Positions 14,630-64,000 of a stretch of 64,000 nt of DNA are shown piece after piece (within the stretch, counting starts at the first letter, position 1; the number at the start of each line of letters is the position of its first letter). Location: contig OY294049.1 in assembly GCA_958510825.1 (NCBI GenBank), forward strand, positions 23,326,945 through 23,390,944, given 5' to 3'. The notes below the pieces were generated by a model that was not told the DNA's origin, did no database searches, and worked only from the letters and a program-made list of their open reading frames with translations. The DNA is from Brachypterus glaber. Its lineage: Eukaryota > Arthropoda > Insecta > Coleoptera > Kateretidae. The position numbers and the translations under genes were made by a program.

Positions 14630-14800
14630 TGTAATTTGAAAAATGTTTCCTCTTAAATAATTTGAACTTGTAAATGATTTGAATACAAAAACTGGTTATT
14701 TTAAACAGAATTCTTTTAATATATTGACATTTTTTAATAATATAAAGGGAAATATTATAATTTTATCAAGAAAACATTAAAATAAGAAAGAAAGGGACAA
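14489..14800. other. AT-rich insert replacing part of RT
   Basis: Between the RT motif ADIK (ending near 14803) and the resumed RT at about 14488 lie roughly 300 bp of AT-rich DNA with no coding similarity to RT, and the RT residues that should be there are gone. This is a replacement (deletion plus insertion), not a simple insertion. No terminal repeats are seen. Confidence 0.65.
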
Positions 14801-17079
14801 TACTTAATATCTGCGATAACTCCAATCTTCTTTTCTCTAAATCTTAACAAAATAGTCGGAATGAGTTCAATTAAATTGGGGCCGATCTCAAGGCATTCAT
14901 TAAGTGACGGCTCATTTTTATTCTTTGCAGAAGCATCAAATACAGGTCTAATGGACGTTGTGGATCCTAGTTTAATTACGTGTCTGTGAGGCAGATAATA
15001 ACCTTGATTTTCTATTTCTTCCCTAGGTACTATCTCGATTATACCTTCTTCTGTCCATTCTTCAAAAACTCGTTGATAATCCTCATAATAACCATCTGAT
15101 TTTAAACGTTTTGTAGTTGTTTGTAATCTCTTTAAAGCAGCAGTTTTATTATCTGATAAAGGAGAATGGGTTTTTTTCCAAGGCAACATAACCTCATATC
15201 TTCCTGTATCATCAAATTTTACAGTATGTCGAAACTTTTCTTTTACTTCTATTTGAAGAGCTTCTTTCGTCTTTCGCTGAACGGGATCAGTTATGCCTAG
15301 AACATCAAGACTCCACAAATCTGCTACCTTAGCATCTTGTATAAACATTGACATGACTGTAAGGACTGAGTCGACTCGTGTGTTCTCTGCTTTAGATTTC
15401 TTACCAATTAATGTCCACCCAAGTCGAGTTTCCATCGCTGTGGCCCCACATTCCAAATTATAAAGATTTCCGGTAAGTAGTTTACCAAATACATCTGCAC
15501 CAATTAATACAGAAATTGGATCACGACTGCAACTGTAATCAGACAGTTTTATATTCCTTTCTTGGAGCTCTTTTAACCATGGCCCCTTTTCTACACTAGG
15601 TATATTATGACAAATTGTCTCATGATCCAAAACAACAAAATTGCAGCTATATGTATCATCTATACTCTTAACATGTAGACGATAGTCTTTGTGCTCCTGA
15701 GGCTTCGTCTTATTACCTCCAAACAATAAGTGAACCACGTTTTGTTGTCCAATTGCCTTAAGATGTAAATCTTTAGCCACACTACTTAAAACATATGATC
15801 TATGAGACCCAGTATCTAGTATAGCTCTCACGACTCGCTCTTCTTTTTCACCGCAAATCTTAAAACGAATCGTTTGTAAAAATACCTCTGTATGTAGCGA
15901 AATATTTGCCAAATTGTTTTCTACTACTTTTCCTGAATTGGTATCTTGTAAACTCTTGAAATCTTGTTCTGATGTCTTCTTGTTTTCTGGAAAACTTCGA
16001 CACATTATTGTCAAATGTTTCTTTGAACACCAGCCACACTTTATGCGTGCTTTGCAAAACCTTTTAATATGATCTCTCTGCAGACAGTGAAAACAAGCGC
16101 CCTTTTCTTTAACTATATTCTGCCGTTCATTTAAGGTCATATTTTTTGCTTTTTCACATTTTTGACTGCAGTGATTACCATTACAAAAAATACAATTTAC
16201 CATTTTATTTTCCTTTCCACTAAGTAAAGCTGAGGCTGTAGCTACATCGTTATTGATATCTAATTGCTGATTTAATTTTGCTTTAGTTTTTGAATCATTA
16301 TTTAATCCAAAACCTTTCATAGCCATCGTAATTCTTTGTTCATTCTCTACTTCCAGTTGCAGAAATTTCATAAGCTGGGCAAGCCGATCTTTTGACGTCA
16401 ATGGTGTTATTAAATTTGTATCTCCATTTAAGATAGCATTACTCAGACTTAATTGTCTCTGCCATGTTCGTAGCAACTCTTCAGGTAGTGATGATTCGAC
16501 AAGAGGATACAACATGGCTGCACATGTGTCTGTGGTTACTCCCAACGTTTCCAGTGCTCGAATGTGAGTTTCTAACTTGTCGTAAATTATGGATAACTGG
16601 ATGTTTTTACTTGTGTTTGAAGCATTCTTTAGTACTAATGTTAGAAGCTCTCTCACATATACTTCCACAAGCAACTCATCTTTTCCAAATCGACTTTTAA
16701 GACTTTCTATTACCCGATCATAATTCATTTCAGTTACTGAATAACTATTGACCAAATCACTCGCCCTGGAACCTTGAATCATAGATTGATTAAGATAATA
16801 AAATTTATCTAATTTTGATACCTGTTGGTCTTCATGGATCTTTTTAAATTGTGACCACTACTGTAACCACTCCTTTAATTCTCCATTAAATTTCCTTAAT
16901 TCAATTTTTGGTAATGTATAATTATGTTTCTCTTGTTGAATTACCATAGAAGGAAATTGTGAATGTTGTAGTGTAGCTTGTGTACCTTGCCTGTTATCAG
17001 CCTGAACTTTCATCTCAACTTCTACTTTGTCTTGAAGATATTTCGTCCTATACTCATCTCCGCTCTCCATCTCCGTCAT
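14755..17079 (-). pseudogene. BEL/Pao gag-protease-RT polyprotein, one in-frame stop
   Basis: The frame runs from the gap edge (17079) to 14755, broken once by a TAG at 16858-16860. Numbering from the ATG at 16782: a DUF1759 capsid-like region (about 1-160), zinc knuckles near 197-209 and 230-243, an aspartic protease of the DUF1758/Peptidase_A17 type with DTGS at 323-326, and the RT start (RPVFDASAK at 612) to ADIK at 660. The last 15 residues come from an AT-rich insert. The part upstream of the stop (YRTKYL, LPKIELRKFNGELKEWLQ) is also DUF1759-type gag and is in the same frame. The true N-terminus is lost in the gap. Confidence 0.92.
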
Positions 17080-17082
17080 TAT

Positions 17083-17282
17083 NNNNNNNNNNNNNNNNNN
17101 NNNNNNNNNNNNNNNNNNNNNNNNNNNNNNNNNNNNNNNNNNNNNNNNNNNNNNNNNNNNNNNNNNNNNNNNNNNNNNNNNNNNNNNNNNNNNNNNNNNN
17201 NNNNNNNNNNNNNNNNNNNNNNNNNNNNNNNNNNNNNNNNNNNNNNNNNNNNNNNNNNNNNNNNNNNNNNNNNNNNNNNNNN
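17083..17282. other. assembly gap (200 N)
   Basis: A run of N separates two BEL/Pao sequences. Left of it is gag of element 1 and right of it is RT of element 2, both minus strand. The reading frames that span the gap are artefacts. A round gap of 200 bp suggests an arbitrary scaffold gap size. Confidence 0.95.
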
Positions 17283-17530
17283 TGTTGGAAGTCCTGATGA
17301 TGATCAGCGACTTTTATTTGACGAAACATCATTCGGATGTCCGTAGTTAAGGCTACTAAGTGTAGTCTAAAATTAAGTAAAATGGTAAGGAGATCCTGCT
17401 GTAGTTTTGGTCCAGTCAATAGGGTATCATTTAGGGACACACCATTTGACGGGGTAAATGAACCATCGTAAACTACCCTTAATTTTTTCCCCACAACAGG
17501 GTGATGAGGAATTATGAAATTTTTTGTTAC
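17283..17530 (-). pseudogene. BEL/Pao RT N-terminal part, element 2
   Basis: The frame carries KLRVVYDGSFTPSNGVSLND, TGPKLQQDLLTILLNFR and TTDIRMMFRQIKVADHHQDFQ, the classical BEL/Pao RT opening with the first catalytic Asp (TTDIRMMFRQI). It is cut at 17283 by the gap. It lies in a different frame from gag, which ends just upstream, so the gag-RT junction is also a frameshift. Confidence 0.9.
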
Positions 17531-17984
17531 TGTCCAAAATGCGTGCTTCCACCGTGGCTAAAAGGACGACATGCGGGGTAGGGACGGGAACTGCGGCGAA
17601 TCCTGAGAGTGCGTTGGCCGATGTCGACGGAACCGCTGGCTGTAGGGTACGCTGGGGTAACTCGGTGAAGTGTAGCATAGTGTGATGTTTTTTCCCACAC
17701 GTGCGACAAACACTATTTGACTTACAATTGTTGATTGTATGCCTACCGAGGCAATTAAAACACCACTTACGACCTTTAATTATGTCATATCTATCACGCG
17801 AAGATTTTTCAGCAAAATTTGGACATTTAAAAAGCGGATGATCTGCGTCACAAAGCGGACACAAATTTTGAGAAACGGTAGCTACAAAAGAATTTGGATT
17901 TTTAAATTTTTGAAAGTTTTGATTTTGCGGTTTATTAATAAATTGCGGTTTTTTATTGATCGATGAAGAAGCGAATGCGACCAT
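17531..17984 (-). pseudogene. BEL/Pao gag zinc-knuckle region, element 2
   Basis: The frame contains a CPLCDADHPLFKC knuckle, CFNCLGRHTINNC and CRTCGKKHHTMLH, the three Cys/His clusters typical of BEL/Pao gag. It continues to TVEARILDS, which normally leads into the DUF1758 protease, but the protease is absent and RT follows within about 30 bp. This frame is continuous with 18608-18051 apart from a stop at 18048-18050. Confidence 0.88.
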
Positions 17985-18047
17985 TTCCAGCGCGTCACAC
18001 TGCTTATTTAAAAAATTAACAAGTGATTGAAAAGAAGGGATAGAATG

Positions 18048-18608
18048 TTAGTCTACTTGTTCTAATTCAAATCTAGTAGTTATAGTACTATCTAGCCTAT
18101 TAAGAAGCATCTGAAATAGAACAAACTCCCACTTATCTGTAGGTAATTTTAAAGTTTTAAGCGCGGCAACATTTTCAGTAAATGCCGTCACTAGCGACCG
18201 AACATTTTCGGGTGATGAATTATTTTCAGAAAGCTTTGGCGAATTTTCTATAGCTTTCCAGTGAGCTGTAGCTAATATTCGTTTGTTCTCGTAGCGAGAG
18301 ATAAGTGCATTATATGCGATTATATAATTATTATCAGTCATTGGTACCTGACTGACCACATCAAGTGCAGCCCCCCCTCTAAAGAGGAATGCAAGTAGTA
18401 CGTCACTAAGGCTAGAATTGTCATGTATCATAGCTCGATACATATCTATGTACGTTTTCCAACCCTTAACGTCGCCCGAGAACCTAGGAAGTTCAACCCT
18501 TGGCAACTTCATGTTTGCAGTAGAACCGACAGTGGTATCTAACTGAGTTTTATTTGTGACGTCATGAATATCAAATTTGTCATAAATTGACTGAATCGAA
18601 TAATACAT
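18048..18608 (-). pseudogene. BEL/Pao gag DUF1759 region, element 2
   Basis: A 186-residue frame with LPRVELPRFSGDVKGWKTYIDMY, the hallmark DUF1759 entry, and the downstream helical region. It stops at a single in-frame TAA (18048-18050), after which the same frame continues into the zinc knuckles. Confidence 0.88.
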
Positions 18609-18652
18609 ATCCTCAAATTTTCCGCAAATTTCGTATTCTTTATCTAAATTTA

Positions 18653-18871
18653 TTATTTATCTTGTAAAGATAGTGCGGAGAGTATACTATTATGATTCTT
18701 GAAAGAACCATCATATAAGGATTGCACATTAGCGTAACGCATTTTAAATTCGGTTACGTCATCGGGGTTTTCGACCGCCAAATCAGCCGACCTTTTGACA
18801 GCCTCTAGCCGTTTTATGAGGCCATCACGCTGCACTGTAGCGGCCTTATATTTTGTTTCTGCAGTAGACAT
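18653..18871 (-). pseudogene. BEL/Pao gag N-terminus, element 2
   Basis: A 72-residue frame starting with an ATG at 18871 with a coiled-coil-like, charged N-terminal region (KYKAATVQRDGLIKRLEAVK). It is separated from the DUF1759 part by a frameshift near 18650. No Kozak judgement is possible. The position, directly after the leader, fits gag initiation. Confidence 0.8.
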
Positions 18872-20095
18872 TATAATTATTATTATTTAGTAATTGTAAA
18901 ATTATTAAGAAAACCCACCCTAATATTATGAGTAAAGTTTCCGTAAAAGAGTGCAAATATGCGTACGTATGTATTTAAATTATACAAATTGCGGTAATTA
19001 TCGCTAAAATTATGCGATATAAAATTCTAGTTTCGCCCAATGCGAAATTTCGAGAAAAGACTAATCAATATAAATTGCAATAATTCTGCAATTAATTAAA
19101 AAATGCAATAAATCTGCGAGCGTTAATTAGTTATAGTGTAAATACGTAGGTATGTACGTTATATATTCTTCCATTCAACATAACTCGTGAAGTAGAAAAT
19201 ATATAAGCGAAAGAAATGTGTTCCTTTTATACTAATAAAGGTAAACTGCGGTTTTTATACAATAATTGTAAGCGGAAAATTATATGTAATCTAATCAATA
19301 AGAAAAAAATTATAATAAAAATGCAATTAATTTATGCATAATATTAAAACTTAAAGCGGTTAAAATAACAAAAATGCGTATTTTTGATTAAACTACATGT
19401 AATAAAATTAAGTTATATTTCGTTTCACCCTAATTAGCTAAAGTACAAAACACGCGTTCAAACAACCAAGTCTGATCAGCTGTTTAAAAATCGATAATTC
19501 TGAAAATTTACCTATACGCGTGGGTCACTGTACTTTATTAAAATTGTAGCAAAAAGCGGTAGGCGACATTGAACCTTATGGCAAAGCGGTGTACAACCAA
19601 AAAAACGGTATGCGATAATGAACCTTATACGATAAAGACATTTAACGGCAAATAAAAATGATTTAAGACGGATCGGATGACCAAAATGTTTGATACTCTT
19701 CTCAGTGGGACTGTATTGATGGTAAATTCATAGGATAACTGATGATCAAATTTATAATGCTATCAAATGTGCGTGAGTATAAGATGCACTTACCGTTGAG
19801 ATGCTGTGTCCATGCTGTATCTAGCCGGCTAGGATGAGATGCGGTGAAATGCGGTGTATTGCACTATTAAGAGCGCATAATATAAAGTTATGTTGCACAT
19901 TAAATCATTAGAATACACACGCGGATTTTTGTGGTTATAAAATTGCACGTACATGAGCGGTGAGAGTTTTTCTTCATCTTCTGTTTACTTCCTTTTTCGC
20001 CACTAGAGGGCTAATTCAGGCATGCGCACTTATACTCATATAAGAGCGTATAAATATTTAAATGAAACTAAATTATATTAATTTAAAATATATAT
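18872..20095 (-). other. leader and presumed 5' LTR of BEL/Pao element 2
   Basis: About 1.2 kb of AT-rich DNA upstream (minus strand) of gag. It contains several GCGGT-type motifs around 19550-19620 and a strong splice-donor-like GTAAGT on the minus strand near 19785-19795. I could not identify PBS or LTR ends. The junction with the plus-strand gypsy element at about 20095 is where that element loses its gag and protease. Confidence 0.5.
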
Positions 20096-21723
20096 ATGAA
20101 TAAACCAAAAATAACGAGAAGATCGAACAAAAGTAAAAAACTCTATAAATATTGTAGTATTATTAACCGTTCTAAAGAAAAAGTTAGTTTAAATATAGGA
20201 CCTTTGACCGTCGAAAAGTTCGATGAATACGAACGTCGACCATGCCCTAATTTTAATAATTTAACATCTGAGGGTATATCATTTGATTTTTCGAAAATAC
20301 GGACAAATCACATGAATCCCGAAGAAAAGGAAGTAATATTGGATCTTCTTAAAGACTATTCAGACCTTTTTCATATTGACAATAATAATTTCCCTTTTAC
20401 TAGTAAAATTAAACATAGTATTAAAACAAAGGACGAAATACCAGTATATACGAAATCCTATCGTTGTTCTGAAGTCCATAAATCAGAAATAGACAAGCAA
20501 ATAAAAAAAATGCTTGATCAAAAAATAATTAGACCGTCATATAGCCCTTGGAATTCTCCAATTTGGGTTGTTCCGAAAAAACTGGATTCTTCCGGTGAAC
20601 GTAAATGGCGTATCGTTATCGATTTTAGAAAATTAAATGATAAAACCATTTCTGATCGATATCCAATACCAAACATTACTGATCTTTTGGACAAACTAGG
20701 ACGTTGTCAATACTTTTCAACAATAGATTTAGCTTCTGGTTTTCACCAGATTGAAATGTCCGAAGAAGACATTCCTAAAACTAGTTTTGCAACTTCAAAT
20801 GGTAAGTACGAATTCGTACGAATGCCATTCGGGCTTAGAAATGCCTCAGCAACATTTCAAAGAGTCATGGATAACGTATTACGAGGTATTTTAAACGAAA
20901 AATGTCTCGTATACTTGGACGACATAATTGTTTTTAGCACAAGCCTACAGGAACACATAATCAACTTAAAAGAAGTTTTTAAGAGATTACGTAGTGCTAA
21001 CTTTAAAATTCAAACTGACAAGTGCAAATTTTTTCAAAAACAAGTTGCCTTTTTGGGTCATATTGTCACTCCTCAGGGAGTTATGCCCAATCCAGACAAA
21101 ATTAAAGCTATCCAAAAATATCCAATTCCGAAAACACAAAAAGAAATAAAAGGTTTTCTTGGCCTATTAGGTTATTACAGAAAATTTATTAAAGATTTTG
21201 CTAAAATAACCAAACCATTAACAGTTTGTTTAAAGAAAAATAGTAAAATAAATATTAACGATCCAAATTATTTAAACTGTTTTAACTTATTACTTAATGA
21301 ACCAATATTACAATATCCAGATTTTAACAAACCTTTTGTTATTACTACGGACGCAAGCCAATTTGCCTTAGGGGCCGTTTTATCACAAGGTAAAATAGGA
21401 TCCGACTTACCTGTTGCTTACGCAAGTCGTACCTTAAACGAAACAGAAACAAAATACTCAACAATCGAAAGAGAACTTCTGGGAATTGTTTGGGCTGTTA
21501 AGTATTTTAGACCTTATGTTTATGGAACTCGTTTTAAAATAGTTTACAGTGGTTATTTTCGTTAAAGGAGCCTAACTCCAAACTAACAAGGTGGCGCCTC
21601 AAACTAGAAGAATATAATTACGAAATCATATATAAAAAAGGATCATTAAATAAAAACGCAGACGCACTTTCACGCGTAGAAATTAACGCACTAACCGATT
21701 CAAAAGACAAAAATCTTTCATTT
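20096..21723 (+). pseudogene. gypsy RT and RNase H
   Basis: The 489-residue frame contains an RT with TIDLASGFHQI (first Asp at 211), FGLRNASATFQRVMD and the YLDDIIVF catalytic box (DD at 275-276), then the RNase H start ITTDASQFALGAVL. A small deletion of about 14 bp near 21550 removes the TDH-PL block of RNase H and shifts the frame. The rest, LKEPNSKLTRWRLKLEEYNYE to NADALSRV, continues in the new frame up to the start of the integrase region. Protease is not encoded upstream, so pol is truncated as well as shifted. This is a Ty3/gypsy-type enzyme by all motifs. Confidence 0.93.
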
Positions 21724-23304
21724 GTGTCCCCAAGTACTAGCTCAAAAATTAATACAGATAAAGATATTCCTGACTTAATTAGTTTTAACGACGACATTAA
21801 TCCCCATTTACTAAATTATATGGATGAATTTAACAAAACATTAGACCCAGACAAAAACTTACACTATGTCCATTATTGCGGAACCTGGCGACTTAACGTT
21901 AGAACGAAACGAAAACGTTGACTTCGAAATTCAAAACCAGGAAAATCTAGAAAATAACGAAATTGACTTAAATACAATTCACTCTAAGGAAGAAAATCCA
22001 ATAATTAACATTCCCATTGTCACTTGCCCCGTAAACTTCGGTAAAAATCAAATTATTTTTTCCCTTGTGGAATTTGCTCCTGCAGAACCTGCAATCGTTA
22101 ATTTGTATAAAACTAAACAAAGAATGTTTATACAAATTTCAAAAAACAACTTTGAACAACACTTTATTAAAATTATAAAGGAATATATTATTCCAAAAAT
22201 GAAATATTACGTTTATTTTGAAGATAATATATATGAAAAAGTAAGTTCTGTTTTAAAAAAATATTTTAAAAATTCTGAAATTAGTTTTATAAAATGTACA
22301 AAAATGTTAACGGACGTTTTGACAGACGACGAAATTCACATGACAATTAAGAACTACCATGAAGGTAAAACTAACCACAGAGGTCTTGACGAGACAGAAA
22401 CCAAAATTAAAGCCCAATACTATTGGCCAAATCAAAGAAGGTCAATACAAACTTTTATTAATAACTGCGAAATTTGTCAACTTACCAAATACGACAGGAA
22501 CCCCTTAAATATAAAATTTAATCTAACCCCCACTGCAATTAAACCCTTTGAAATTCTACATATAGATAGCATAACCTTAGATAAAACAAAATTTTTATCA
22601 ATTATCGACGCATTTTCAAAATATGCGCAAGTTTACAAGCTTAACTCGTCACAAAGTATAGAACTAGTTAATAGCTTAGTTAGATTTTTTACACATCATT
22701 CTATCCCTAAAGAAATTATTTCAGATAACGGAAGTGAATTTAATAGTGGCATGTTTAAAGAATTATTAGAACTACACAAAATTTCAGTACACTTTACATC
22801 CAGTCAAAACCCGAACTCTATGGTGGAGAGATTTCACTCAACAATAATAGAGCATATACGTTTATCTAATAACCGCGATGAATTTAAAAATGAATCAATC
22901 GAAAATAAAGTTAACTACGCCCTTCCACTAATTTAACGCCCTTTGAAATAATTTCAGGCCATATAACTACAAACACTCCTTTTAACCTAGAAATTGATAA
23001 ACAACTTTTAAATAATTACATTTCTAATCATAAAGAAAAAACTAAAATCATGTGTCAAAAAATTAACGAAAATTTACAGAAAAATAAAGAACATGTCATA
23101 TCAAAAGCTAACGTAAATAGGGAAGAACTTCCTGAAGTAATCCCACAAAAAGTTTTTGTAAAAAATAAACAAAAACAAAGCAAAACAAAAAATAAATACA
23201 AAGCAGAAAATACAGAGGAGGTAAATTAGAATCTCAAAACTGCAATCGATAAAGTTCACATTTCAAATGTTAAAGGCCAAAACATACAAATAACGAAAAA
23301 ATAA
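21724..23304 (+). pseudogene. gypsy integrase
   Basis: The main frame 21866-22936 has the N-terminal errantivirus integrase extension, the zinc domain (H165, H171, C201, C204), and the catalytic residues D234 (LHIDS), D287 (ISDNGSEF) and E321 (MVERFHS). A frameshift near 21870 separates it from the RNase H-linked frame and another near 22930 precedes the C-terminal part (TPFEIISGHITTNTPFNLE). That tail has an in-frame TAG at 23227-23229 and ends with three consecutive stops starting at 23302. All three catalytic residues are kept, but the gene is broken. Confidence 0.92.
23296..23302 (+). promoter_or_regulatory. possible -1 frameshift site between pol and the macrodomain
   Basis: Six A followed by T lie immediately before the triple stop that ends the pol frame. 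The macrodomain frame is exactly -1 relative to pol and is open from here on, without an ATG near its start. The heptamer does not match the strict X XXY YYZ consensus with a preceding A (it is G AAA AAA), so this is a proposal only. Confidence 0.35.
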
Positions 23305-23318
23305 TAATAGAAAATCCA

Positions 23319-23822
23319 GTGTACATTATACATAATGACATTTTTAAATGCGACCCAAGTTTCTCATTAGCCCATTGTGTTTCTCGCGATTTTAAAATGT
23401 CACAAGGAATTGCTTTACAATTTAAAAATAAATTTAAAAATGTAGATCACCTAAAATCCCAAAACAAACAAACTGGCGAAGTAGCTTTCCTTAAAGTAGA
23501 AAATAGATATATTTATTACTTGATCACAAAAGAAAAATTTAATGACAAACCTAGCTACGAAACCTTTAAATTAACGTTACAAAATTTAAAAGCCTTATGC
23601 TTGGAAAATAAAACAAAATCTATTGCTATGCCTAAAATCGGTTGTGGCCTAGATAAGTTAGATTGGAATACAGTCTTAAATTTAATAAAAGATGTATTCA
23701 AAGATTCAGGTATTTTAGTACATATTTTTATAAAAAACGAAAAAAGCTACAACCTTCGCAGTAAGAAAAAAAATAACCCCATGCTAGAAACGCAAAACCC
23801 CAATTCAGAAACTTTCATTTAA
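23319..23822 (+). CDS. TARG1/OARD1-like macrodomain ORF between pol and env
   Basis: A 167-residue frame that closely matches the small macrodomain protein TARG1 (OARD1), which removes ADP-ribose from acidic residues and from DNA ends and hydrolyses O-acetyl-ADP-ribose. Visible blocks: DIFKCDPSFSLAHCVSRD, MSQGIALQFKNKF, TGEVAFLK, RYIYYLITK, KPSYETF and MPKIGCGLDKLDW. K71 and D112 fall exactly at the positions of the TARG1 catalytic Lys84 and Asp125 (constant offset of 13). The C-terminal 25 or so residues are a basic extension (YNLRSKKK). There is no ATG at the start; the frame is open upstream into the pol stop region, in the -1 frame. It shares frame with env but ends in a TAA 21 bp before it. 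Base composition is like the flanking pol and env. A host-gene capture by the element is the simplest reading. Confidence 0.85.
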   Translation: MYIIHNDIFKCDPSFSLAHCVSRDFKMSQGIALQFKNKFKNVDHLKSQNKQTGEVAFLKVENRYIYYLITKEKFNDKPSYETFKLTLQNLKALCLENKTKSIAMPKIGCGLDKLDWNTVLNLIKDVFKDSGILVHIFIKNEKSYNLRSKKKNNPMLETQNPNSETFI

Positions 23823-23828
23823 ATTCAT

Positions 23829-23842
23829 TTATTTTTTTTTAG
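23829..23842 (+). promoter_or_regulatory. candidate splice acceptor for env mRNA
   Basis: A run of nine T followed by AG ends at 23842, directly before the env frame, which has no ATG at its start. Errantivirus env is made from a spliced RNA, so an upstream exon supplying the start codon and most of the signal peptide is expected. The donor was probably in the lost 5' part. Confidence 0.6.
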
Positions 23843-23843
23843 A

Positions 23844-25505
23844 TTGCTCTCATTCGGATATGGAGCAGAAATACGAAATATCACACACAACCTTGGTCTT
23901 TTACCCATTAATCTTGGTTTAGCTAAATTCCAAAGAACGGATCACACATTCGTTCACTATTATGGATTACAACCCTTATACGATAAGTACCATAGTTTAA
24001 ATTTAGAATTTAGAAATTTAGAATTAATAAGTACCAATAAAAGCCTTTACAATAAAGAGCTAGATAACTATAATAAAATTATTAGATATACGCAAAATGG
24101 AATTAAGGAAAAAATTAGTCATATTAACTTAAGTTTTGATAACAATTTGTCGAGGAAGAAAAGAGGATTATTTAACGGGATCGGCTCAGTAATTAAAACT
24201 TTAACAGGCAATTTAGACTCCAACGATGAGAAAAAATTTTACAAAATTATAAGTCATATTTATGAGGGTCAAAGCAATATTCAATACCAACTTCAATTAC
24301 AATATTCAATTAACCATAATATTATAAAAAACTTTAATAATACTTTAAAAGACATTCAGTTCAACGAAGACATTTTAAAGAAAAAGATTATCCAATTAAA
24401 TAACTTTTTAACCGAAAAGGTACAAAACCAAATTTTTGTCCTATTTACACAGGATCAAATCTTAATAATTTATAACTCAATTTTAAATATTTTAGAGGAC
24501 ATTGAAAACTCTATAACATTTTGTAAACTTAATACTTTGCATCCAAGTATTATAAAAACTGTTGACTTGTTTTCAGAAATTAAGAAAATTTCAGAACATT
24601 ACCGTAACCAACTTCCTTTTGAAGTTAAATACGAAAACATTTTAGATTTTGAATCAATTTTAAAAATTAACTGCCAAATAGAACCAACTAGAATTACATA
24701 TTTTTTGTCTATCCCAATCAATTATGAAGAAAATTTTGAACTTTTTCACCTAATCCCCATCCCAACAATGTTTAAATCGGAATTTGTCAAAGTAATTCCA
24801 AACACTCGTTATCTATTAAAATCCAGTAAAAATAAATTTATTCCCCTAACCGACTTATGTACACGAAAAGGAAAGATCTTTCAATGTGCAAGTCAGCTGC
24901 AGTCAAACCAAGAGATAAGCTGTGAAAAACAGGTTATTCTGGAAGAAAATTCTCAAAAATGCTACTATACTCAACTTTCTATACCACAAAACCACATCGA
25001 AATAATACCCGAAATAAATCAGTACTTAGGAGTTTTTCCAATCGACGAAACCCTTCACATACAATGTAACGATGGATCTGAAACGAAAACCCTATCCGGA
25101 ATTTATCTCCTAAAAGAAGATAACTGCCAAATTTTCTTTAAGAAAAATCAATTACATTTTATGGAAAAAACTGTTGGACGCCCCACACTGGTCAGTAATC
25201 TGAAACTCAACATTCAAGAAACCCAAATTCAAGATTTTAAAATAAACTTAAAAACACTCAGACTTCCCGAAATTCCAGAAAATACCATCATCCCGATAGA
25301 AAAATTTAAAATAACTGAACATTACACCTTAACTATAATAACATATTTTATCATTGGAACCATCTTCATAGCATTCTCAATCCGCTGGTACAACAAGCAT
25401 CTGTGTAAAAAACCACAATCAACCGAAAACCATATTGATGGTCAAGAACTTCAACAACTCCAGGAAGGAAGACAACTCAACCTACCGGGGGATGCCTCAT
25501 TCTAG
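23844..25505 (+). CDS. errantivirus-like envelope (F-type) protein
   Basis: An uninterrupted 553-codon frame with the layout of insect errantivirus Env and baculovirus F-type fusion proteins. The surface part is about 107 residues, ending in a furin-type site RKKR (104-107) followed by a glycine-rich fusion-peptide-like stretch (GLFNGIGS). A membrane span lies at about 495-513 and is followed by a 40-residue tail. The first codon is TTG after the acceptor, not ATG, and no signal peptide is seen, consistent with an upstream exon. No break is visible although pol of the same element is degraded. Confidence 0.88.
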   Translation: MLSFGYGAEIRNITHNLGLLPINLGLAKFQRTDHTFVHYYGLQPLYDKYHSLNLEFRNLELISTNKSLYNKELDNYNKIIRYTQNGIKEKISHINLSFDNNLSRKKRGLFNGIGSVIKTLTGNLDSNDEKKFYKIISHIYEGQSNIQYQLQLQYSINHNIIKNFNNTLKDIQFNEDILKKKIIQLNNFLTEKVQNQIFVLFTQDQILIIYNSILNILEDIENSITFCKLNTLHPSIIKTVDLFSEIKKISEHYRNQLPFEVKYENILDFESILKINCQIEPTRITYFLSIPINYEENFELFHLIPIPTMFKSEFVKVIPNTRYLLKSSKNKFIPLTDLCTRKGKIFQCASQLQSNQEISCEKQVILEENSQKCYYTQLSIPQNHIEIIPEINQYLGVFPIDETLHIQCNDGSETKTLSGIYLLKEDNCQIFFKKNQLHFMEKTVGRPTLVSNLKLNIQETQIQDFKINLKTLRLPEIPENTIIPIEKFKITEHYTLTIITYFIIGTIFIAFSIRWYNKHLCKKPQSTENHIDGQELQQLQEGRQLNLPGDASF

Positions 25506-25514
25506 AAGGGGAGG
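25504..25514 (+). other. polypurine tract of the errantivirus-like element
   Basis: The purine-rich AGAAGGGGAGG directly precedes AGTTAC, the typical start of an errantivirus LTR. It overlaps the end of env. Confidence 0.65.
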
Positions 25515-25709
25515 AGTTACATGACCGTCCGGTCATTACCCTTATTTGCATAGGTGCATTTCCCATAGTAATTAGATATTAGTTTATATTATATTTTTTT
25601 TAATTATCATAGTCAGCATTTTACATTGTCAGCATTTAATTATTATTCATTTTTATTTTAACTTAATAAATCAGTCTTGAGTAGAAATCCAAACGAAGAA
25701 CACTTTACT
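25515..25709 (+). repeat. probable 3' LTR of the errantivirus-like element
   Basis: Starts AGTTACATGACC after the polypurine tract. It holds AATAAA at 25665-25670, followed at once by TCAGTC, an initiator-like motif of the kind used in errantivirus LTRs. The proposed end at ACT (25709) is a guess from the AGT/ACT rule; no 5' LTR exists here to confirm the length. Confidence 0.5.
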
Positions 25710-25777
25710 AAAACTCTGTCAATCCTTAAATTTAGAATAAAGTTTTTAAAAAGGCTATTACGAGAATCAGGAAGATA

Positions 25778-25815
<38 letters not shown>

Positions 25816-26551
25816 GTCTCCTATTTTGTGTTTATAATTTGAAAATTCAATTTAACTTCTGAAAAATGTCATATCCTGTGTATTAAATTTACGCCTGATG
25901 TTTAATAAAATGTAGGAACTAGGGTATTTAAAATAAATGCAAAGTCTGAAGGAAAAAAGAGCAAAAAATGATTGCTTAAAATTGAGATTCCGCTAAAAAA
26001 GTGTGCCCATATAACATCAAAGGCACATTTAAATTAGGTAAAGCCGTAAAAGTTAATCTAGTAGGAAAGTATAATTAAGACTACAAACCAATATAACTTT
26101 TGATATCTTCGGTTCTGATTTTCAAGCGGTGTTCTAAGTATAAAGTTTATTATAAAAATTAAATACACTGCAGTATATAGGGAGTTTGTTATGATTCGTA
26201 CAGTTTTTACAAATTTAGTTGTAAAATCTTTTAAATATTTTTAATTCTATGTTTCCAACAATCAAACTAATAAACTGTTTTATAAAACTTCAAATTGGTA
26301 GGGAAAACCTTTTAAAATACAACTTATCATGTTTACCGCCACAGAAAAAAATCTTTAGAAAATATTTTTACTTCACATTTTGTAGTTTGACGGGTCATAC
26401 CCAGAAAACCAAAATAGCTCGAAACTAGTGCAATAAATGCGACCTATTTTTATGGCCTAGAAACATCCTTAAAATGTCCCCAAATGCACACAACTAGCCC
26501 TAATAATATAGCTCGCATTTTTATTTCTAATTTTTGATCCATCCAAACCTG

Positions 26552-26701
26552 AAATAGCATGCTATTTTCGACATATTATATAATAAATTGAAAATATCGA
26601 CCTAAAATAGCTCCTGAATAGCATGTTATTTTTAATCCAAATAAGGTTTAAAATAGCATGCTATTTATGAACTAAATTAGTTCAAAAATATCATGCTATT
26701 T
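26552..26701. repeat. four spaced copies of a 16-bp palindrome
   Basis: AAATAGCATGCTATTT is perfect at 26552-26567 and 26651-26666, with one-mismatch versions at 26617-26631 and 26686-26701. The copies are 34-65 bp apart with dissimilar spacers. Confidence 0.8.
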
Positions 26702-27230
26702 TCTACCTAATTTAGCAGTATATTTTTGATCTATATTTTTGATAGAAATAAAACAGGTGATATACGTAAAAAAGCTTATTATTTATAAACAGGATGATCA
26801 GAATAGGTACAATATATTTGTTTGTGGTTAGGACTTGTATCACAACACACTTTAGATAATTTTTGTTGAAAATTAAAATTTTCACATCCATCTTCTTCCT
26901 CACTCAATTTTCAATATATTTTTAACTCTTATTTTCACTATTATTCACTATTTCACTACTTCTGCTTTCACCACAGCAGTTTTCTTGTACCACTCCTGAA
27001 AAATTGTTAAAAATCATTAAAAAAAAGAGGGAAGGGTTTGGGGGGTTGTAGCCCGTCAGTGCGCCACTTGTTGCAGAATATAGGCAAAATGTGAACTTCC
27101 TGAATGCAAAATTTAATATTCAGCAAAATCTGCAAAAGTTAAATGAATTTTAAGAATAGATATGGATTAAGAAGCTTAAAATCTATAAGCAAACCTATTT
27201 TTATTAGGTCAATCCTGGACCGTCAAGGAT

Positions 27231-27383
27231 AAATCTCTGCTCATTGGCAAAAGCGTTAAATTTAAGACGATGTTGCAAAAAATCATCTAAAGATTTATTT
27301 GTTTTCCAGAGAATACATAAAATATAAATTTTTAAAATATAAATCACTGCTCTTTGGTAAAAGTGTTAAGTTTAAGACGATGC
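27231..27383. repeat. diverged direct repeat, 111-bp period
   Basis: A 42-bp block starting AAATCTCTGCTCATTGG at 27231 recurs as AAATCACTGCTCTTTGG at 27342. Both are followed by TTAAGACGATG. Confidence 0.75.
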
Positions 27384-27511
27384 ATAGCGATGTTGCAAGA
27401 AAACCATATGGTTTGGACTTTTGGACTAAATATTGTGAGATATTTTACGATTTTTTTATCTTTGTAGAGAATACTTATAAAAATGTAACCCAAATAGTAT
27501 ATTCTATAACT

Positions 27512-27612
27512 AGTATGAAATAGACAATATTCCGCGCGAGCGGAAAGTTTGTCATACGAGCCGGCAGGCGAGTATGATGGTCCCGCGAGCGCGGAATGAC
27601 TATTTCATACGT
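27512..27612. repeat. GC-rich imperfect palindrome
   Basis: The outer arms GTATGAAATAG and CTATTTCATAC enclose TTCCGCGC / GCGCGGAA and an inner TCATAC / GTATGA pair. The centre is rich in CGAG/GCGG units, in sharp contrast to the AT-rich flanks. It resembles in design the foldback at 42959-43158. Confidence 0.75.
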
Positions 27613-28118
27613 GTTGTAGACTATACTTTTTCTTCGACTGCAAATATGAAACACTGTATGGCTTTAAACTGTGGACAAGGTTAAAAACAATGTTTCTTGT
27701 GACTCGACATTGTAAATGCAACAAAACACATATTTTTAAATAAAGCAATTAATGGTATTTAATAATTTTATCAAATCAGTACTTAAAAAATATTATTATT
27801 TAATTTTAGCACATATTTACAAATTATAATGCAAAAATTAAAGGTTATGTCAGATTATTGTGACAGATATCAGGTTTAAATATTTAACAATAGATGGAGT
27901 AGTTTTAATTTTTTGAACTAAATTGATTAAAAATTGGTCAAATATTAAGAAAAACCAATAAACTTTAATAATTACATTACATGTTTACATGTTTGTTTAA
28001 CCTCGTACTATTCTACTTAATTAAGCATCCCCTAAGTCCAGGACTTGTGTGGGCTAGTAGTAGAGGGAACCACCGGCTTATACTGACTTTCGAACCAGTG
28101 TCTAGGGAGTGTCCGTTT

Positions 28119-28119
28119 C

Positions 28120-28185
<66 letters not shown>
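28119..28185. repeat. (AAT)n microsatellite / non-LTR tail
   Basis: About 22 trinucleotide units. On the minus strand it follows AATAAA and is the 3' tail of the non-LTR element at 28.2-30.9 kb. On the plus strand it follows a possible 3' UTR (28021-28118). Confidence 0.85.
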
Positions 28186-28398
28186 TTATTCATTCCAATA
28201 TATCATGTACATGATATAGGACAAGTCAACGTGTAGGTATACATAAATAATTAAATACATGTAATATAAAACTTAGCTAATTAAAACATATAATAAAGGT
28301 ATGTAACAGTTAAAAACGATATGCTAAAAATTCATCAATCGAATAAAATGCATTTGAAATCAAAACATCTTTGATTGATTTAACATACAAAGAATATT

Positions 28399-28905
28399 TT
28401 AAATTTTTAATTCTGTGAGGCACTTTATGTATAATATAGCACCATAATAAAAAGGATTCTGTTTAGACATCTGCAGATTATGTCTGGGGAGTAGAATATT
28501 CTCAGCATTACGGGTATTATAATTATGATTATTCTTAAATAAGTCAAAGGCATTTAAATTTGATCTCACAAACTTTAAAATTTCAAAGATATAAAGCGAG
28601 GTAAATGTTAAGAGGTTTTCATTAATAAAAGTGTTTCTGCAGGAATCGCGATACTTTAGTCCGTACATATTACGTATTGCTCTTTTCTGTATAACAAATA
28701 CTCGATTTGCTTCGGTAGAATTACCCCACAAAATTAAACCATAACGCACTATAGACAAAAAGTTAGACATATAAAAAACACGTACAACATTCTTGTTGCA
28801 AATTTGACTAAGACGTTTTAAAGCAAAACAATTACTAGAGCATTTTTTGCATACATAGTCAACATGTTCTTTCCAATTTAAGGACATGTCAACATGTATC
28901 CCCAA
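28399..28905 (-). pseudogene. non-LTR ORF2 C-terminal region
   Basis: A 168-residue frame with the post-RT pattern found in Jockey/CR1-like elements: LGIHVDMSLNWKEHV (thumb), then RYGLILWGNS and VIQKRAIRNMYGLKYRDSCR. It is separated from RT (29879-28944) by a frameshift near 28925. Confidence 0.85.
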
Positions 28906-28943
28906 GACTTTAGTGGATGTAACCTGATGAATGCTTTTGTTGT

Positions 28944-29879
28944 TTAATTTAATAAGATTGCTTTCCTTGCAAGCTCTCTATCGCAGTTAGATGAAACTAA
29001 TGTAAAGTCATCAGCAAAGGCACACCAAAATATTTCCAAAACTAAGTCAATATCATTACAGTACAACAAAAATAAAAGTGGGCCCAATACACTGCCTTGA
29101 GGAACGCCTATTTCAATATCAAGCTCTTCCGATAAAACTCCAAAAAAATCAACTATCTGTTTCCTATTTTTCAGATAATCTCTCAAAATTTCCAGACACT
29201 TTCCGCGCAGACCATAAAATTCCAGCTTTTGCAGTAGAATCTCATGGTCTACGCAGTCAAAAGCTTTGGACAAATCAATAAATAGCGCGATTACCCTATT
29301 TTTAATATCAACGTTATCATAATTATAATGTATCAGTTCACACAGAGCAGTAATAGTGGATTTACCTTGTCTGAAGCCATGCTGGCGTTTACTAAGTATG
29401 TTGTTGATATTCAAAAAGTTTATTATTCTTTTAAATAAAACCCTCTCTATAATTTTTGAAAAGGCAGACAAAAGAGATATAGGCCTGTAATTACCTAACA
29501 CTTTAGGGTCACCTTTTTTATATAAACAAATTACTTTTGAGATTTTTAGTAGACTAGGGAAACATCCGTCAATTAAACACAAATTTATTAAAAAGGAAAG
29601 AGGTTTTACTAATTGTTTTGAAGACTTTTTTATGATAGAAACAGGAAAATTGTCAAGGCCACAAGAGTTAGAATTTTTTAAGTTTTTAATAATCTCATGA
29701 AGTTCGTCTTCAGTAACGGCATCTAAAAAAATTGTATTTGATATCCGTTTTTTATGTGAATTCACGTTATTTGAAGAACTGGAGTTATTTTTTAAATTGT
29801 TTGCAATATTTTTTGGAAGATTTATAAAATAAGTGTTAAACTCATTAGCAATTTTGACTTTTGTCGCTAGTTTCTTCAT
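28944..29879 (-). pseudogene. non-LTR reverse transcriptase
   Basis: A 311-residue frame with the RT motifs in order: SCGLDNFPVSIIKK, YRPISLLSAFSKIIER, FRQGKSTITAL, LFIDLSKAFDCVDHEIL (first Asp), IGVPQGSVLGPLLFLLY and FADDFTL (catalytic box FADD). The start is shifted out of frame from the endonuclease-linker frame near 29870. Motifs are intact but the ORF is not continuous. Confidence 0.92.
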
Positions 29880-30708
29880 TATTTACTACAAAAGTCTCCG
29901 GTTTTGGTGTGTTTTTTGTATTGTTTTGGGATTTAATCAATTTCCACACAGTTTTTGTTTTATTTTGAGAATTTAAAATTTTTGAATCTATGTCAGTTCT
30001 TTTCGCCGCACGGATAACTTTCTGATAAATAGATTTATATTGTTTATAAAAGTCATTAGATACCCTACCAATTTTTTTAAGTTCAAATAATTTTTTTAAG
30101 GTTTGTGAAGAACATTTAATGCCAGAAGTAATCCAGCTCTTTGTTGAATAATTTTTAGGTTTATTAGAAATGACGGGAAAACATTGTTCAAAATAATTAT
30201 TTAAGGTACTTATAAAATTTTCAAATTTGACATTGGCAGATAGATCACAATTTATTACATTTTGCCAGGTTTCACAACTTAGTTTATTTAAAAAAAGTTT
30301 TATATTTTTATTAGAAAAAGATCTACCAGAGAAAGATACATTTTGCTTAAAATCTAAATTAAAACAAATTTTTTGAGAAGAATGATCTGACAGTCCGTTT
30401 TGGTTAATATCCTTTTTGGTTATATAATCATTAAAATTAGTAAATATATAGTCTATACAGCTAGACTTTTGATTTTGTTTTCCTAATCTAGTAATATCTT
30501 TAAATACAGAATGTTTATTATATGAATTGGTTATATCTAGAAGCCTAATTTTCCTGTCTATTTCAATTTTTTCGTTTGAGCACAAATCTATATTTAAGTC
30601 ACCGCAAAGTATTAACTTATCAAATTTCATTTTACAAATTAAAAAGAGTGCTTCATCCAATTTCGAATAAAATGTTCTGAATATCACCATCTGTGGAGCG
30701 GTAAACAC
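29845..30708 (-). pseudogene. non-LTR endonuclease (C-terminal half) and linker
   Basis: The frame carries ILCGDLNIDL, SSCIDYIFTNF and GLSDHSSQ, the last three conserved blocks of the APE-type endonuclease, then a Lys/Asn-rich linker before RT. The N-terminal catalytic blocks are missing; upstream minus-strand sequence to about 30890 is endonuclease-like in other frames. Confidence 0.88.
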
Positions 30709-60916: not shown

Positions 60917-62903
60917 AAATAATTATAATAAATCGCATAATTATATTGAGTCAGAAAGTTATCTTTTTAGCATTTCAGAAAACATTTTTAATGTTGAAGA
61001 CGGTCAACAAAACAAACCTTTTTTGTTACCCGTCGTTATTGACAATAAAAAAATTTCATTTCATGCCGACACCGGTGCGTGTATAAGTGCGATTTCATAT
61101 GATTTTTATAAAAACAATTTTAGCGATAAAAAGTTAAATAAAACAGATAAGGAAATATTTGTTTATACAGGACAAAAATTTAGTCCTATGGGCAGTATTA
61201 AATTAAATTTTTCGTACAATAACTCCAATAATGATGTCGAAATTTTTGTTATAAAAAATGGTGGCCCACCAATTTTGGGTCGGGATTTTTTCACTATTTT
61301 TAACATGGGTCTGTCCCAATTAAATTATTGTGACGATAACTATGAAATTGAGCAATTAAAGTCAGAATTTAAGGAACTATTAGAGCCCAAATTAGGTACT
61401 TTCAATAAACATAAAATTAAAATTTCTTTAAAGGATGACAAAGTTGCCCCAAAGTTTTTCAGAGCGCGAAGCATACCCTATGCTATTAAGAAAAAGGTCG
61501 AGGATGAACTAAATAGGTTATTAGAGCTGGATGTTATCTCTAAAGTGGACTATAGTCAATGGGCCACTCCGGTCGTCCCGATTTTTAAGCAAAATGGGCA
61601 AATACGGCTCTGTGCAGATTTTAAAGTCACTATAAATCCTCACATTGAAGTGTTGCAGCATCCCTTACCTCGTGCAGAGGAGCTATTTGCCAAGGTAAGT
61701 GGAGGTGAGGAGTTTACAAAGTTAGATTTGAGTAATGCTTATCAGCAAATACTACTAGATGAGGATTCTAAATTATTGGTAGTAATTTCAACCCATTTAG
61801 GTCTTTTTAAGTACCATAGATTACCCTTTGGGGTATCTTCAGGCCCCGCCGAATTCCAGAAAATTATGGAGGCCCTATTTACAGGTCTTGAGGGAGTTTG
61901 CGTGTTTATTGACGATATTTTAATCACTGCGCCCTCTAGAAAATTACATATGGCTCGATTATGTCAGGTTTTGAAAATATTACAAGATTCCGGTTTTAAA
62001 ATTTCCTTAGAAAAATCTTTCTTTTTTCAAAAATCCGTAAAATACCTGGGCTATATGATCTGAAAAGACGGAATTTCCCCATGTAGTGATAAAATTGAGG
62101 CAATACAAAAGGCTCCTATTCCTCAAAACATTACGCAATTAAAATCTTTTTTAGGGTTAGTTAATTACTACGGTAAATTCATAAACAATTTAGCAAACAT
62201 TTTGTATCCTCTGTATAACCTGTTAAAAAAATCAGTCAAGTGGGAGTGGTCTGAAAGTTGTAATGAATCTTTTAATATAATAAAAAATAAATTTACATCT
62301 AGTGACATTTTAGTTCATTATGATTCTAATATGCCTATCAAATTATTCGTAGATGCTTCAGATTACGCTATTGGTGCCTTGCTCTGTCACGTCATAGATA
62401 AAATAGACAAACCTATTGCCTATGCGTCTAGGGTCATGAATTCAGCAGAGGTTTCTTACTCCCAATTGGAAAAAGAGGGACTTGCTATAATATTTGGGTT
62501 GTGTAAATTTCACGATTATCTTTATTTAAGGACTTTTACGCTTGTCACTGATAATTTACCACTTGCATCGATTTTTAGTCCTACTAAGGCCATACCGCAG
62601 TTTTCAGCTAACAGGTTGCGTCGCTGGGCAGTAATTTTATCAAATTATAATTATAAAATTGAATTTGTAAAATCTGAAAAAAATAAGTCGGATTTTTTAT
62701 CCAGACTGCCTATTGAATCACCCTGTATAGATAAAAATATGGAAAAGGTAGACTTAAATTATGAAAATTATTTTGGTAGCATTTCTGAGGTTCAAATTAA
62801 GTTCTCAGTAGTACGCCAATGTACAGAAAAGGATATTTTTTTACAAAAAATTATTAAATGTGTTAAGTCAGGTTTTTGGCCTAGTGTTTTTTTTTTTAAT
62901 TGA
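60831..62903 (+). pseudogene. Mag-like protease, RT and RNase H
   Basis: The frame overlaps the gag end and is +1 relative to it; the A7C run at 60904-60911 lies in the overlap. It has the protease HADTGACISAI, RT with KLDLSNAYQQI (first Asp), FGVSSGPAEFQKIME and the catalytic box FIDDILIT, then RNase H FVDASDYAIGALL and DNLPLASIF. A TGA at 62061-62063, in the GYMI-KDGIS motif, is the only stop inside this frame up to 62903. The frame is lost in a T-run at 62886-62898. Confidence 0.92.
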
Positions 62904-64000
62904 AAACTTTAAACCTTTTTTAAATAAAAGACTAGAGTTATCAGTAGAATCTGATTGTTTAATCTGGAATAATCGACTGGTGATCCCAGACAAATTACAA
63001 AAACAAATATTAGAACAATTACATGCAACACACATGGGCGTAAGCAAAATGAAGGGTTTGGCAAGGTCTTATTTTTGGTGGGGGTCCTTAGATAAAGACA
63101 GAAATGTTTTGTAAGCAATGCGATGCCTGCAACTTAAATAGTCAAGCACCTAAAAAAAATGTTTTATCGCCCTGGCCTTGGCCAGAAAAAGCATGGGAAA
63201 GAATTCATTTAGACTTTTGTACGCTTTTTAATAAAAACTTTTTAATATTGGTCGACGCGCATTCAAAGTGGCCTGAAGTAACGTTAATGACGTCAACCAC
63301 TACTCAAGCTACAATAACTGTTTTGAGGTATACATTTGCCAGGTTCGGACTCCCTGTTTTTTTATGTTGCGATAACGGCCCATCGTTCCGTTCACAGGAA
63401 TTTAAATCATTTTTAGAAAAAAAATGGAATTAAGTTAATTTTATCTTCCCCATATCACGCCCAGAGCAATGGTCAGGCGGAGTGTGGAGTGAAAATAGTA
63501 AAAAATGGTCTCAAAAAGGCTTTTTGTTGTGAAAACCAAAATTTAGACATTCATCATGTTCTGTGTAATTTTTTATTTGATTACAGGAATTCTAAACACT
63601 CCACTACGGGTGTAACTCCCGCGGAGTTAATGTTTCGTCATAAAATAAATGACCGATTTAGTTTATTGTCACCCTTTTCTCAATCTACGGTAAAAGAAAA
63701 TGTCATAAATAGTCAAAATAGACAAATTCAAAATTTTAAGGGGAGAGGTTTGGTGTCATTTAATTTTGGTGATACGGTGTTAGCTAGATATTATTCAAAT
63801 AATAAATATTTTTGGGCTAAAGGTATCATTAATAAAAAACTAAGTAAAAATCTTTATGAGGTAAATGTTTCGGAATTTAATGCTGTATGGAAACGTCACG
63901 CAAATCAGTTAAATAAATATATTAAATCTGAACCCTTACCTATACTACCCGATCCGTCTCAAAATATATCGGAAGTTAAAAATACGGAAAGTAATGTCGA
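62860..64000 (+). pseudogene. Mag-like integrase, cut by the window end
   Basis: Three frames. 62860-63114 has the zinc-domain His part (LEQLHATHMGVSKMKGLARS). 63104-63433 has the zinc Cys pair (CKQCDAC), the first Asp (HLDFC) and the second (CDNGPSF). 63434-64000 has the terminal Glu (YHAQSNGQAECGVK) and the C-terminal domain (NFGDTVLARYYSN, WKRHANQLNKY). Frameshifts lie near 63110 and in the A-run at 63417-63424. Catalytic residues are kept. The reading frame is open to the edge. Confidence 0.88.

Follow-up and report, generated by a model that had tools for sequence, protein, structure and literature searches.

The 64,000-nucleotide stretch of the Brachypterus glaber genome analyzed here (hereafter the window) contains a damaged, envelope-carrying Ty3/gypsy retrotransposon, and within it lies an open frame at 23319-23822 (+ strand) that a sequence-only reading had likened to the host protein TARG1 (also named OARD1 or C6orf130) and taken for a frame of its own between integrase and env. 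The locus raises the question of whether this frame belongs to the element or is a stray host copy and, if it belongs, what a retroelement might gain from it. We found that it is a TARG1/OARD1-class macrodomain with the catalytic residue pair in place, that by comparison with a sister copy it forms the C-terminal part of Pol, and that the domain is conserved in many retroelement lineages; the reading we favor is that it removes ADP-ribose placed by the host.

A TARG1-class domain at the end of Pol

The frame encodes 167 residues, with GTG as its first codon, within a reading frame open from 23274 (to 23822), and it has no intron. Pfam matched it to Macro (PF01661) with an E-value of 1.9e-8 and a score of 34.7 bits, the cut-off being 22, and a phmmer search of PDB sequences found human OARD1/TARG1 with an E-value of 9.3e-39, residues 4-137 aligning to residues 11-144 without a gap. 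An AlphaFold2 (AF2) model made from 39 sequences had a predicted local distance difference test score (pLDDT) of 90.7, and its top Foldseek row was TARG1 with ADP-ribose (4j5s_C; root-mean-square deviation 0.8 Å, target-normalized template-modelling score (TMt) 0.96, 44% identity), so that the fold comparison proposed by the sequence-only reading came out in its favor. From Pfam, phmmer, our own hidden Markov model (HMM), AF2 and Foldseek, we placed the TARG1-class macrodomain at 23286-23765 (+). We conclude that the frame is a TARG1/OARD1-class macrodomain and that a chance match is excluded. Its GC content (0.286, against 0.295-0.315 in the RT-RNase H, integrase and env frames; RT, reverse transcriptase) also bears out the AT-rich composition that had been noted.

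Because the alignment is gapless, the constant offset to TARG1 claimed earlier is right, and Lys71 (codon 23529-23531, +) and Asp112 (codon 23652-23654, +) are the equivalents of TARG1 Lys84 and Asp125, as a column check also found. Passages of PMC7050489 name Lys84 and residue 125 as the catalytic pair of TARG1; that text prints Glu125, and the PDB sequence has Asp there, in GCGLD. The likeness to TARG1 thus comprises a model within 0.8 Å, 44-45% identity and the Lys/Asp dyad, with the macro fold nearest to TARG1. In contrast to TARG1/OARD1, a free and minimal host protein without extensions, the macrodomain here is a domain of retroelement Pol or, as described below, Gag. Since it sits inside Pol, we regard it as a TARG1-class domain and not as an OARD1 gene. 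Judged from the sequence, it is most likely an active ADP-ribosyl hydrolase.

The place in Pol was evident from sister copy L045 (~97% identical), which has a single open Pol frame of 1392 aa with the order RT, RNase H, linker, integrase (IN) and macrodomain last. As read from this comparison, the window macrodomain is the C-terminal domain of Pol, which damaged frames have separated from the rest here. The position between integrase and env claimed for it therefore stands in the window, and its status as a separate frame does not; a separate gene with its own start was rejected on the same grounds.

Carriers, conservation and history of the domain

Searching the beetle's own genome with the window protein (P0001), we scored the best 150 of 638 candidates, making the counts a lower bound; all 150 matched with E-values of 1e-41 or better, and 127 of them were stop-free by hand count, many within frames of 1400–1700 aa. 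The eleven diverged lineages that were read keep the macrodomain in pol, two after IN and nine between RNase H and IN. The latter place is where non-primate lentiviruses have an unrelated enzyme, dUTPase. A whole-looking element, L031, has two 241-bp long terminal repeats (LTRs) that are 99.6% identical, a 525-aa gag frame (its Retrotrans_gag match fell just below the cut-off), a 1465-aa Pol with the macrodomain last, and a 581-aa frame without a Pfam hit at the env position. In L033 the macrodomain is in frame between RNase H and integrase of a 1496-aa Pol, and in L032 it has the same place by position and letters, although it was absent from the Pfam matches at E 0.01. All three have the order protease, RT, RNase H, IN, with weak protease matches, and Baculo_F envelope matches were also present in L032 and L033. 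In seven of seven further pol stretches the macrodomain lay between RNase H and IN; one of these, L041, was picked because its env family had no listed macro row. The check that the sequence-only reading had proposed, whether relatives carry the domain between integrase and env, gave a place behind integrase for the window and L031 and one before it for nine lineages; that reading had missed that the domain is inside Pol, mostly before integrase in the lineages read, and that other retroelements carry it.

Among the best 20 env rows, 16 had a macro row ~1.6–1.9 kb upstream (matched by hand), and two more (L055 and L056) showed an upstream macrodomain on reading, making 18 of 20. No macrodomain was found for the remaining two, L054 (RT and IN, neither RNase H nor macro) and L057 (IN, with both RT and RNase H absent within 3.6 kb); because RNase H is also gone, both look like deletions. 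L054, L055 and L056 are frame-damaged copies with internal deletions and near-identical integrase scores, and L055, without an RNase H match, yet keeps macro and IN. We also sought the host OARD1 gene with the Cylas OARD1-like protein P0069, and the best 150 of 486 rows were all retroelement-like, so that a host gene was not separated from them.

About 65 of the best 150 rows for the weevil OARD1-like query seemed to belong to another repeat (hand count by identity and span), ~41 of them with open frames of 499–517 aa; two copies were read. Each has a single long frame (L050 2129-3676, -; L051 891-2441, +) with a Gag-like part (Pfam PNMA 0.007–0.008, under the cut-off) followed by the macrodomain. 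In the copy spread over L052, L051 and L053, LTRs of ~1117 bp (L052 4526-5001 plus L051 1-641; L053 411-1526) were 99.8% identical over 476 bases and 100% identical over 641 bases. Downstream of its frame, L051 continues for 3.56 kb without a + strand frame of more than 73 aa, models from Ty3-type elements found no RT, RNase H or IN in L051-L053, and env was likewise undetected. The Gag part had no significant match among five gag or presumed gag frames, and the macrodomain, which keeps its complete site, is equally close to animal OARD1 and to the pol-borne P0077; this would suit a separate capture by this repeat, which is apparently an unrelated, non-autonomous LTR element.

With the L031 pol macro region as query, 16 proteins were matched among 314 candidates (four from Uroleucon formosanum, two from Planococcus citri, one each from Athalia rosae and Ephemera danica, all of these species being insects, and eight from other assemblies), and pol-macro fusions were present in aphid and sawfly records. 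The macrodomain was directly before integrase in P0076 and P0082, was followed by a linker and then integrase in P0074, P0077 and P0078, and lay between RNase H and integrase in P0079 and P0080, whose RT is far from the rest. P0081 and P0086 (Planococcus citri) have TARG1-class macrodomains too; P0087 (Planococcus citri) pairs its macro match with an RVT_1 match invisible to the Ty3-type RT model, and P0085 pairs it with a GDSL esterase match under the cut-off. From their likeness, we take these four to be possibly ORF1/ORF2 proteins (of the two open reading frames) of non-LTR elements, and they are perhaps further captures. No element domain was found in the Ephemera protein P0083. An IMG/VR search returned one contig (L034, 34% identity), which was not used.

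Some lineages have, in addition, a degenerate second macrodomain in the linker before IN. A profile test was clear for groups C (P0074/P0078) and B (L032/L033), with 0 of 200 and 0 of 100 shuffles as high for each; it was not significant for the window-type linker (6 of 200 shuffles as high, and 10 of 100 with four sequences) or for groups D and E (41 and 15 of 100). Comparing the groups with each other (60 shuffles each), A-D and C-E were clear, C-D was weak (0/60), and the rest gave 1/60 (D-E), 2/60 (A-C), 4/60 (A-E) and 7 to 35/60 (others). A Foldseek search with the window linker found nothing at E 0.001. From these comparisons, the window-type linker is a likely candidate for a second macrodomain. 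The glycine loop is gone from the second domain, as is the N-terminal binding stretch; in P0074/P0078 one Lys and one Asp still align with the dyad.

The dyad of the first, TARG1-class domain was conserved, with both catalytic residues kept in the family, which the sequence-only reading had set as its condition. A column check found Lys71 and Asp112 in 14/14 own-genome rows, of which four are near-copies from a single family. In rows from other LTR elements it found Lys in 11/11 and Asp in 10/10, one row stopping before the Asp. Both residues were present in 4/4 rows from other retroelements (two rows identical). Of the remaining 71 rows, 70 have the Lys, and the Asp is present in 68 of the 69 that carry any residue at its column. 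Nearly all rows of this macrodomain retain the dyad together with the HC, GIA and GxGxD stretches. Between lineages, only the proportions of nonsynonymous and synonymous differences (pN and pS) were used, because the synonymous rate dS was saturated; in 21/21 lineage pairs macro pN was 0.22–0.38 against a pS of 0.57–0.87, which points to purifying selection on the macrodomain. For window and L031, the nonsynonymous rate dN was 0.247 in the macrodomain, 0.232 in RT and 0.397 in IN. Among 14 recent L031-type copies the pooled dN/dS (w) was 0.25 (L026, which is shorter, was omitted, and the pairs are not independent). For the gag-macro pair L050-L051, w was 0.35 over the whole frame and 0.5 in the macro part, where two synonymous and four other changes are too few to judge.

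In the macro tree (31 of 101 rows omitted as long, near-identical or partial, or for thinning; a first tree had 100 rows, without the gag-macro frame P0090) the 11 own-genome pol macrodomains formed one clade (99/97), so that one old capture can explain the pol-borne copies of this genome. Most of the retroelement rows were split from most of the others with weak support (73/89), and P0079, P0081 and P0085 were on the host side. Window and L031 grouped together (100/95). The integrase tree put window, L031, L037 and P0077 in one clade (99/98), L037 and P0077 having the macrodomain before integrase, and requires two position changes; the L037 copy showed no macrodomain after its integrase. Because nine lineages have the other position, the one behind integrase is probably derived, and since the two trees disagree on L037 and P0077, an exchange of modules is possible. 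The RT tree did not resolve the window's place.

The window copy and its surroundings

The element body that the window copy shares with its sisters runs from 20126 to 25790 (+; blastn against L045, and against L044 for the first part, ~97–98% identity). Homology to L044 and L045 begins at 20126 while the sisters run on, and gag is therefore missing; the copy is thus 5'-truncated, and it is also frameshifted, the RT, RNase H and integrase regions lying in shifted frames. A search of 18500-28500 gave no LTR pair. On the + strand, RT is at 20576-21067 (Pfam RVT_1 2e-38, own HMM), RNase H at 21320-21615 in two frames (Pfam; own HMM in two pieces), and the RNase H-IN linker of ~106 aa, a candidate degenerate macrodomain, at 21992-22309. 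The integrase zinc-binding domain follows at 22322-22492 (Pfam Integrase_H2C2 3.4e-13, own HMM), and then the first frame of the integrase core at 22544-22936 (Pfam rve 2.5e-10; a shifted open frame, 22915-23229, comes next). An open envelope frame of baculovirus-F type is at 23823-25505 (Pfam Baculo_F 3.7e-21 for 23844-25505). The neighbors named earlier, RT/RNase H and integrase upstream and a Baculo_F env downstream, were thereby recovered, and from the RT-RNase H-IN order (Pfam, own HMM) and the type of envelope we label the carrier an errantivirus-like, env-carrying Ty3/gypsy element, in agreement with the sequence-only reading.

Behind the element are overlapping palindromic repeats (26552-26734; core AAATAGCATGCTATTT). 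A second gypsy-type element at 61587-63641 (+), whose frames for RT, RNase H and integrase are broken, gave no macrodomain match. The minus-strand region 14755-18608 has DUF1759 and weak aspartyl protease matches and is presumably a BEL/Pao-type Gag-Pol in pieces; 200 bases within 17054-17494 are N. The minus-strand region 28399-30708, with an RVT_1 frame at 28944-29879, we take to be probably a non-LTR retrotransposon.

What the domain may do for the element

TARG1 is described in PMC7050489 and PMC8053099 as hydrolyzing ADP-ribose off Asp/Glu, O-acetyl-ADP-ribose, and 5'- or 3'-terminal phosphates in DNA and RNA. We consider it rather probable that the catalytically equipped TARG1-class macrodomain is a standing module of Pol that travels in the particle and removes ADP-ribose placed by the host. 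It would be made as part of Gag-Pol and carried along, and in the particle or the newly entered cell it would strip ADP-ribose from element proteins (Gag, Pol) and from the 5'/3' phosphate ends of element RNA and cDNA; the marks would be set by host transferases, and their removal would let reverse transcription and integration proceed. Of the two roles that the sequence-only reading had suggested, both inferred, we rank counter-defense (there against a PARP-type host defense) first and the cleaning of ends at integration second. The same enzyme might instead have its main job in cleaning ADP-ribosylated ends of cDNA and target DNA, and repair proteins, at integration, which we hold to be unlikely; in the pol frames that were read the macrodomain does flank integrase, before or behind it, and passages of PMC7050489 and PMC8053099 have TARG1 cleaving ADP-ribose from DNA end phosphates and being recruited to damage. 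However, the spot beside integrase may be just a tolerant site in Pol, and the gag-macro element carries the domain without a detected integrase, from which the common site of action would be the particle and not integrase.

Hydrolysis would not be needed if the macrodomain were a reader of ADP-ribose, poly(ADP-ribose) or RNA guiding Pol or Gag to host sites. Macrodomains act as readers as well as erasers according to PMC7050489, TARG1 is described as binding RNA in PMC8053099, and the loop variants described below would suit a reader, but a reader does not need both Lys and Asp, which all full retroelement rows keep, and we think this quite improbable. Even less likely, and only a slight chance in our estimation, is a domain captured once and useful merely as a folded spacer: that the degenerate copy persists before IN suggests that the fold can stay without a complete binding site, yet the first copy keeps HC, GIA, GxGxD and the dyad in nearly all rows where the second lost its glycine loop and N-terminal binding stretch, and the gag-only element keeps a full site in what is its only detected enzyme, making a passenger unlikely. 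A processed host OARD1 copy landed by chance in an old element, the refuting case that had been foreseen, would fit an intronless frame ~45–55% identical to animal OARD1 and further relatives; we give it practically no chance, as it is refuted by the in-frame Pol copies in L045 and in many lineages and species, with the dyad conserved.

Several observations weigh against the counter-defense that we favor. In the literature we found, ADP-ribosylated retroelement parts were not reported. The loop GCGL is replaced by ACGL, GSGL, ASGL or GCGK in several lineages, and binding may therefore be altered in some. Amino acid sites of the macrodomain change 1.3 to 3.0 times faster than those of RT in 21/21 lineage pairs (RT pN 0.12–0.27), and the L033 pol macro region matched 0/305 protein database candidates at E 1e-3. 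The dN/dS comparison among copies, supportive for the L031 type, gave no support in the window's own family, where eight copies out of L001-L015 (15 in all, seven being shorter and left out) had a pooled w of 0.70, like dead copies.

A bolder version, which we advance tentatively and with some doubt, is that macrodomains are a basic part of Pol in env-carrying Ty3/gypsy elements. Pol would hold an active TARG1-class domain and, surviving as the linker before integrase, a degenerate second one, also in elements whose active domain now lies behind integrase; a gag-only LTR element and other retroelements would each have acquired the enzyme independently, and ADP-ribosylation would then be a general, as yet unnoticed arthropod defense against retroelements.

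Among known systems, the macrodomains of corona-, alpha- and hepeviruses are proposed to counter host ADP-ribosylation (passages of PMC10891851 and PMC7050489), but they are of the MacroD type, another class, and the alphavirus domains are 12–16% identical to the window domain. A MacroD-type viral macrodomain was ruled out, TARG1 and then DarG being the best solved matches by phmmer and Foldseek. DarG, an ALC1-like macrodomain (the class of TARG1), is described in PMC7050489 as reversing DNA ADP-ribosylation without the acidic dyad member; it is bacterial and 20–24% identical to the window macrodomain. The phage antitoxin AdfB, directed against DarT, is similar by role as a parasite protein against an ADP-ribosylating defense, and the abstract of PMC11481870 does not call it a macrodomain. 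Closest in kind are fish endogenous retroviruses, said in an excerpt of PMC4977317 (citing Basta et al. 2009) to have macro domain proteins in additional open reading frames; they are likewise reverse-transcribing elements with a macro domain, but are retroviruses of ray-finned fish, set beside the present elements by description only. In the literature we found there was no macrodomain in insect elements, and a prior description by Chary and Hayashi (2025) is possible; macrodomain and ADP-ribose terms are absent from the main text of PMC13172572, PMC12992720, PMC12440569 and PMC12062965.

Passages of PMC13172572 and PMC12992720 describe host control of such elements as silencing by piRNAs (Piwi-interacting RNAs). 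That many lineages keep an ADP-ribose eraser in Pol, and a gag-only element keeps one as its sole detected enzyme, points to ADP-ribosylation as a second pressure, which would act on element proteins, RNA or cDNA, and the question becomes testable in terms of transferase, target and step. It would extend virus-borne macrodomains from the MacroD type of plus-strand RNA viruses to the TARG1 type of reverse-transcribing elements, and the kept active site hints at a little-explored host defense.
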